DNA of 64,000 bases from positions 2,561,549 through 2,625,548 of the forward strand of contig JAXHLS010000002.1 of the NCBI GenBank assembly GCA_034522055.1, in the 5' to 3' direction. The stretch's first letter is position 1. The number at the start of each line of letters is the position of its first letter. Source of the DNA: Gammaproteobacteria bacterium. GTDB lineage: Bacteria; Pseudomonadota; Gammaproteobacteria; JAABTG01. The position numbers and the translations under genes are program-made. The notes below the pieces were generated by a model. That model made no database searches. It was not told where the DNA came from and worked only from the letters and a program-made list of their open reading frames with translations. Shown piece after piece: positions 3,161-3,334 of the stretch.

Positions 3161-3266
3161 TGGCCAATGAGGCCGGGGCGAGGCCCCGGATATGCTTATT
3201 TTCTCCACAAGCTCAAAAAACAAAATCCTTGCTTCAATGAGGACTGGCCCTTAGCCAGTCCCATAG
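3161..3266 (-). ncRNA. Candidate crRNA-like regulatory RNA (CreR/CreA type) in the csb1 leader
   Basis: On the minus strand two pseudo-repeats enclose a 34-nt pseudo-spacer (3230 to 3197). Pseudo-repeat 1 (about 3266 to 3231) has hairpin arms GGACTGGC/GCCAGTCC and then TCATTGAAGC. Pseudo-repeat 2 (about 3196 to 3161) has arms CCGGGGC/GCCCCGG and then TCATTGGCCA. TCATTG recurs at exactly 70 bp, the size of one repeat plus spacer, and in both copies follows 21 nt that contain the hairpin. ATTGAAGC resembles the usual 8-nt crRNA handle. The stems differ in sequence but both still pair, as in the degenerate repeats of CreA and CreR RNAs. Spacer bases 1-18 match a site at 3301-3284. A possible -10 (TACTAT, 3275-3270) would start transcription right at hairpin 1. 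The structure is seen; the function is inferred. Confidence 0.72.
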
Positions 3267-3269
3267 AGG

Positions 3270-3334
3270 ATAGTAATTTATTTTCAAAACACAAATTCCT
3301 TAAAATGTTTAATCGGTAATTTCTATGCTACTAT
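3270..3334. promoter_or_regulatory. Divergent promoter region of csb1 (leftward) and brnT (rightward)
   Basis: This AT-rich stretch stands out in a GC-rich window. Rightward, TGCTACTAT at 3327-3334 (read TG-C-TACTAT) is a plausible extended -10 for brnT. Leftward, TACTAT at 3275-3270 is a plausible -10 for the crRNA-like RNA and csb1, with a start expected near 3263. Neither has a convincing -35 hexamer, so the exact starts are uncertain. Confidence 0.4.
3284..3301 (-). promoter_or_regulatory. Predicted Cascade target of the crRNA-like RNA in the csb1/brnT promoter region
   Basis: The minus strand from 3301 reads AAGGAATTTGTGTTTTGA; the pseudo-spacer from 3230 reads AAGGATTTTGTTTTTTGA. They agree at 16 of 18 positions and differ only at 6 and 12, the positions flipped out of the guide-target duplex in type I Cascade. 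The bases 5' of the site on this strand are TTTT, so a TTN PAM is present, as reported for the Geobacter sulfurreducens I-U system. Agreement is lost after base 18, as expected for binding without Cas3 cleavage. The site spans the -35 region that would go with the possible csb1 -10 at 3275-3270 and lies beside the brnT promoter region. Confidence 0.68.

Follow-up and report, generated by a model that had tools for sequence, protein, structure and literature searches.

Regulation by guides that resemble CRISPR RNAs (crRNAs) and match their targets only in part is already known from three kinds of system, termed CreTA, CreR and CrePA (PMC8501985, PMC9458426, PMC12737573). CreR guides lie beside a cas operon, match its promoter partially, and mediate autorepression of type I and type V-A cas operons (PMC12737573). 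In CreTA, which guards the cas genes through an RNA toxin and has been clarified only in subtype I-B (PMC12737573), the guide CreA is bordered by two divergently decayed repeats, carries an 8-nt 5′ handle, and pairs at positions 1-5 and 7-11 beside a 5′-TTC PAM (PMC8501985). CrePA applies Cascade-guided repression to the promoter of a protein toxin, CreP, which is typically a KilA-N protein (PMC12737573). A 2025 review raises the question of whether types other than the few worked out so far have such coupling (PMC12737573). Type I-G has been called the least well understood of the type I subtypes, with its PAM recognition unexplained; in this subtype, Csb2 cleaves the repeat to leave an 8-nt 5′ handle, the PAM is TTN, and every sixth crRNA base is flipped out (PMC9638904). 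No type I-G example of a regulatory guide was found in the literature searched, a scope without the 2023 mini-array survey. In that survey, by Shmakov et al. (2023), two-repeat mini-arrays that partially match cas or cargo promoters were reportedly common in type I.

The window, by which we mean the whole 64,000-nt stretch of gammaproteobacterial DNA that was analysed, carries csb1 as the first gene of a type I-G cas operon on the minus strand. Past csb2, and outside the window, follow cas3, cas8g, a second Csb2-like gene, cas1, a cas2-sized ORF, and then the genome's CRISPR array, with ~41 copies of a 36-nt repeat (GTTATCCGCGGCATTCAGCCGCGGCCTCATTGAAGC) whose 3′ end is matched 41 times in the array, and with native spacers of 35-38 nt. 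Genes for Csb1, Csb2, Cas8g, Cas3 and Cas1 and an array, as expected of type I-G, are all present, and the locus is intact. Directly upstream of csb1, on the same strand, two degenerate repeats enclose a 36-nt spacer, and beyond this unit the divergent brnT and brnA genes begin (Table 1).

Table 1. Features of the mini-array, its target and the neighbouring genes, in window coordinates
Feature	Positions	Strand	Remarks
Degenerate repeat 1 (psiR1), CTATGGGACTGGCTAAGGGCCAGTCCTCATTGAAGC	3231..3266	-	Hairpin and intact 3′ end
Predicted 8-nt 5′ handle of crRNA-like RNA, ATTGAAGC	3231..3238	-	Same as the end of the native repeat
Pseudo-spacer, 36 nt, AAGGATTTTGTTTTTTGAGCTTGTGGAGAAAATAAG	3195..3230	-	Length within native range
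Degenerate repeat 2 (psiR2), CATATCCGGGGCCTCGCCCCGGCCTCATTGGC	3163..3194	-	7-bp GC hairpin retained; 3′ handle decayed (ATTGGC...)
Target (protospacer), AAGGAATTTGTGTTTTGA	3284..3301	-	Pairs at 1-5, 7-11, 13-18
PAM TTT (TTN)	3302..3304	-	Agrees with the TTN PAM of type I-G (PMC9638904)
Candidate sigma70-type promoter of mini-array and csb1	3275..3304	-	Prediction; -35 TTTAAG 3304-3299, -10 TAAATT 3280-3275; PWM score 8.70
Candidate divergent brnT promoter	3277..3306	+	Prediction; -35 TTTATT 3277-3282, -10 TAAAAT 3301-3306; PWM score 10.13
csb1 (cas7g)	1861..3144	-	TIGR02570, E 2.7e-19, above cut-off
csb2 (Cas5-Cas6 type)	167..1864	-	TIGR02165, E 4.7e-76; predicted processing enzyme
brnT toxin gene	3380..3658	+	PF04365, E 3.9e-23; divergent from csb1; possible second target gene
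brnA antitoxin ORF	3576..3899	+	PF14384, E 1.7e-20; in-frame ATG at 3600

The two repeats of the mini-array have decayed asymmetrically. The final 12 nt of psiR1 (CCTCATTGAAGC) are identical to those of the array repeat, and its stem is unlike the native stem in sequence yet fully paired; psiR2, which ends 18 nt upstream of the csb1 ATG, yielded the sole Rfam match, a weak one to CRISPR-DR16 (3165-3189, E 0.0034, below the gathering score). The handle thus survives in psiR1 and the hairpin in psiR2, as expected if just these parts enter the RNA, and the same divergent repeat decay has been described for creA genes (PMC8501985). As in CreR loci, a crRNA-like unit with a repeat-derived handle lies near a cas operon, with a partial seed match and a PAM upstream of that operon.

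The match itself is specific. The first 18 nt of the spacer (AAGGATTTTGTTTTTTGA, minus strand from 3230) agree with the minus strand from 3301 (AAGGAATTTGTGTTTTGA) at 16 of 18 positions, with mismatches at 6 and 12 only, so that all 15 non-flipped positions of 1-17 match, as does 18, after which matching ends; TTTT lies immediately 5′ of the target. A sequence-only reading of this DNA had reported this pattern, which was confirmed base for base. The site, 140-157 nt before the csb1 ATG and 79-96 nt before brnT, is the only exact occurrence of the pattern TTNAAGGANTTTGTNTTTT in the 5.1-Mb genome, and 15/15 was never reached when the AT-rich intergenic sequence was dinucleotide-shuffled 20,000 times. 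These shuffles, together with the handle-linked enrichment and the PAM and scrambled-handle controls obtained in relatives (below), led us to reject a chance origin of the match.

We interpret the mini-array as a crRNA-like regulatory guide of type I-G that acts on the csb1 promoter region, a reading to which we assign a probability of roughly 0.78 from sequence comparisons; the sequence-only reading's proposal of such a unit aimed at the csb1/brnT promoter region is supported by the anatomy, the PAM and the flipped-base pattern. Csb2 would cleave the csb1 leader transcript within each of the degenerate repeats and free an RNA that has ATTGAAGC as its handle and a hairpin at its 3′ end; this RNA would join Csb1, Csb2 and Cas8g, and the resulting complex would bind the TTT-flanked site at 3301-3284 through an 18-bp interrupted R-loop. 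Cas3, Cas8g, Csb2 and Cas1 are encoded beside the mini-array. Because pairing ends at 18, the R-loop would presumably not be long enough to provoke cutting by Cas3, and the bound complex would instead block the promoter of csb1, the presumed regulated gene, and of the mini-array itself. Through such feedback the defence complex probably controls how much of itself is made; repression would be in proportion to free Cascade and would be relieved as effector is drawn off by array crRNAs, by losses or by anti-CRISPR proteins.

In this scheme the target would be the functional promoter. A simple promoter model places the csb1 start near 3268, close to the first base of psiR1, and the predicted csb1 and brnT promoters, in AT-rich DNA, overlap on the 30-bp stretch where the complex would sit; a stricter consensus scan passed no promoter on either the csb1 or the brnT side. 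The predictions suggest that the divergent brnT promoter shares its footprint with that of csb1, and the brnTA promoter may also be held down by the same complex. In addition, predicted Csb2 cleavage would leave a csb1 mRNA starting ATTGGCCACCAAT, with a small hairpin right before the GGAG ribosome site (window 3145-3170, minus strand).

The sequence-only reading had proposed a search for the same layout upstream of csb1 in related genomes, and the layout was found to recur in unrelated lineages. A regular expression for the exact handle plus hairpin found no match upstream of csb1 in relatives because psiR1 stems are often decayed, and dropping the hairpin requirement in favour of a seed/PAM rule proved effective. 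In 67 loci with a csb1 relative, the 17 nt that follow each position were compared with TTN-flanked sites within 1 kb, and at least 13 matches were required among the 15 non-flipped positions (6 and 12 ignored). Positions preceded by a repeat-type handle (at most one mismatch to ATTGAAGC) matched in 7 of 29 cases, compared with 35 of 66,768 for all other positions (Fisher P = 3.5e-17). When both strands were scanned, 14 of 185 handles had a match with a TT PAM; seven other dinucleotides in the PAM position gave 0-1 matches, and scrambled handles matched in 0 of 376 cases. The rule recovers the window and 13 further loci across several phyla, with matching loci assigned by record title to Planctomycetota, Acidobacteria, Myxococcota/Deltaproteobacteria, Proteobacteria, Victivallales and Alicyclobacillus. 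Under a position-neutral criterion mismatches still concentrate at 6 and 12 (11/17 each) and jump after 17, and for 10 of the 14 strong matches a second GC hairpin lies 36-46 nt past the start of the spacer, a placement seen at 4.6% of control positions (P = 3e-11).

Close relatives of this csb1 commonly have the mini-array, but it is not universal: many type I-G loci lack such a unit by this rule. The csb1 family model also retrieved a broader set of proteobacterial, planctomycete and Alicyclobacillus genomes, taken with short flanks; this set yielded a single clear new case, L119, and a doubtful one, L110. In genomes of the window's own family, csb1 and the region are absent and no close relative retains the window's unit, so that conservation of the pairing is seen in other lineages only. 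The sequence-only reading had made its proposal depend on such conservation in relatives, and in Alicyclobacillus the pairing is indeed maintained by co-changes. The same layout is kept in A. acidiphilus (L070/L095) and A. suci (L069/L094). A comparison of L070 with L069 shows joint changes of spacer and target at positions 3, 9 and 14; 6 and 12 are altered in both spacer and target and are unpaired in both species, and a match at positions 2 and 17 occurs in A. acidiphilus only. The Alicyclobacillus target overlaps a TATAAT, and downstream of it follow a gene for a 31-32-aa peptide and then csb1.

At most matching loci, csb1 or a small gene immediately preceding it is the first sizeable gene 3′ of the target. 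In L037, L045 and L072, csb1 is that first sizeable gene and no toxin gene was recognised; in L056, L060 and L068, csb1 lies within 300 nt of the target, and the intervening ORFs are small or dubious. Several neighbouring genes may be recorded in their own right. PIN-domain (VapC-like) genes lie between the unit with its target and csb1 in L058 (4204-4650, plus strand) and beside the target, divergent from csb1, in L056 (~4066-4461, minus strand). A planctomycete locus, L027, has a gene for a sigma-70 region-4-like protein between target and csb1 (4360-4869, plus strand), and in L060 a match to a PADLOC serine/threonine kinase model that is linked to I-C adaptation modules lies between mini-array and target (3272-3772, minus strand). 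The conserved hydrophobic peptide gene of Alicyclobacillus (L070 ~1836-1935; L069 ~511-606) sits directly 3′ of the target and upstream of csb1, has a strong ribosome site, and is a candidate for a CreT/CreP-like small toxin.

The readings considered here overlap, and the probabilities that we attach to them do not sum to one. The guide might mainly repress the divergent brnT promoter, so that brnTA would be a Cascade-controlled addiction or abortive module like CrePA or CreTA and csb1 would be incidental. The predicted brnT promoter does score higher, its -10 and spacer fall within the target, and toxin-like genes occur at the target in relatives (PIN in L058 and L056; the hydrophobic peptide in L070/L069); against this, brnTA already has a protein antitoxin in BrnA, csb1 is the nearest sizeable gene 3′ of the target in L037, L045 and L072, where no toxin gene was recognised, and it is csb1, not brnT, whose orientation the unit shares and to which it is fused. 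We regard this account as unlikely, though the least so of the alternatives. An action in cis at the RNA level, whereby Csb2, by binding or cutting the two hairpins, sets csb1 mRNA stability or translation and the spacer is irrelevant, would suit a unit within the csb1 leader whose psiR2 ends just before the ATG, with no terminator predicted by a strict scan between mini-array and csb1. It leaves the seed/PAM match unexplained, however, and the units that are transcribed away from csb1, for example in L070, L072 and L068, speak against it; as a replacement for the guide it seems improbable, and such an action may operate in addition to the guide.

That the unit is a functionless array remnant with a once-captured, self-targeting spacer appears less probable still. 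Degenerate repeats and a single spacer would be consistent with decay, but a captured spacer would match over all 36 nt, whereas here the match ends at 18 with mismatches at flipped positions; moreover, the stems remain intact although their sequence differs, many phyla share the design, and the pairing co-varies in Alicyclobacillus. The likeness of spacer and target could also reflect an AT-rich promoter or protein-binding site that was duplicated in tandem, since the two AT-rich copies lie 71 nt from each other on one strand. We rejected this explanation, which we hold to be very improbable, on the evidence of relatives, in which targets occur on both strands and often on the one opposite the guide (L037, L045, L056, L072), matches depend on the handle and the TT PAM, and mismatches keep the 6-nt period.

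Taken as a regulatory guide of type I-G, the mini-array resembles CreR in its partially matching, crRNA-like guide beside the cas operon and aimed at the predicted cas promoter (PMC12737573); it differs in subtype, in the placement of the guide inside the csb1 leader, and in having a type II toxin gene, brnT, at the same intergenic region. With CreA it has in common two divergently decayed repeats, the 8-nt 5′ handle and pairing at 1-5 and 7-11 (PMC8501985), but pairing here reaches 18, csb1 adjoins the unit, and the toxin encoded nearby is a protein, not an RNA, and is paired with an antitoxin of its own. Possible control of brnT would be akin to CrePA (PMC12737573), and the target overlaps a predicted brnT promoter; in CreTA and CrePA, however, the toxin has no antitoxin other than the guide, whereas brnA lies downstream of brnT, and BrnT is a ribonuclease toxin rather than a KilA-N protein. 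It is a tentative suggestion, to which we give only about the same slight credence as the brnT account or a little more, that one Cascade footprint represses both the cas operon and the type II pair brnTA, and that type I-G systems generally carry Cascade-sensing switches. Were the joint footprint real, loss or inhibition of the I-G effector would boost cas expression and release the toxin module.

The main reading would carry Cascade-guided self-regulation to type I-G, and the natural, partially matched targets would reveal which guide positions and which PAM the I-G effector reads. Recurring type I-G units also make the question raised by the 2025 review testable, for example in the cultured Alicyclobacillus acidiphilus.

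Other features of the window were noted in passing. Palindromes GCTATCCGGATAGC and CTACGAATCGTAG lie 5′ of brnT (window 3340-3379) and are possible BrnA operators. Beyond brnTA are a short HTH/WCX regulator piece (window 4057-4452, minus strand) and a second toxin-antitoxin pair, composed of a Phd/YefM antitoxin and a PIN protein (window 4430-5081, plus strand), and a tandem array with a 14-nt period (CCATTCACCATTCA) occupies window 12300-12408.
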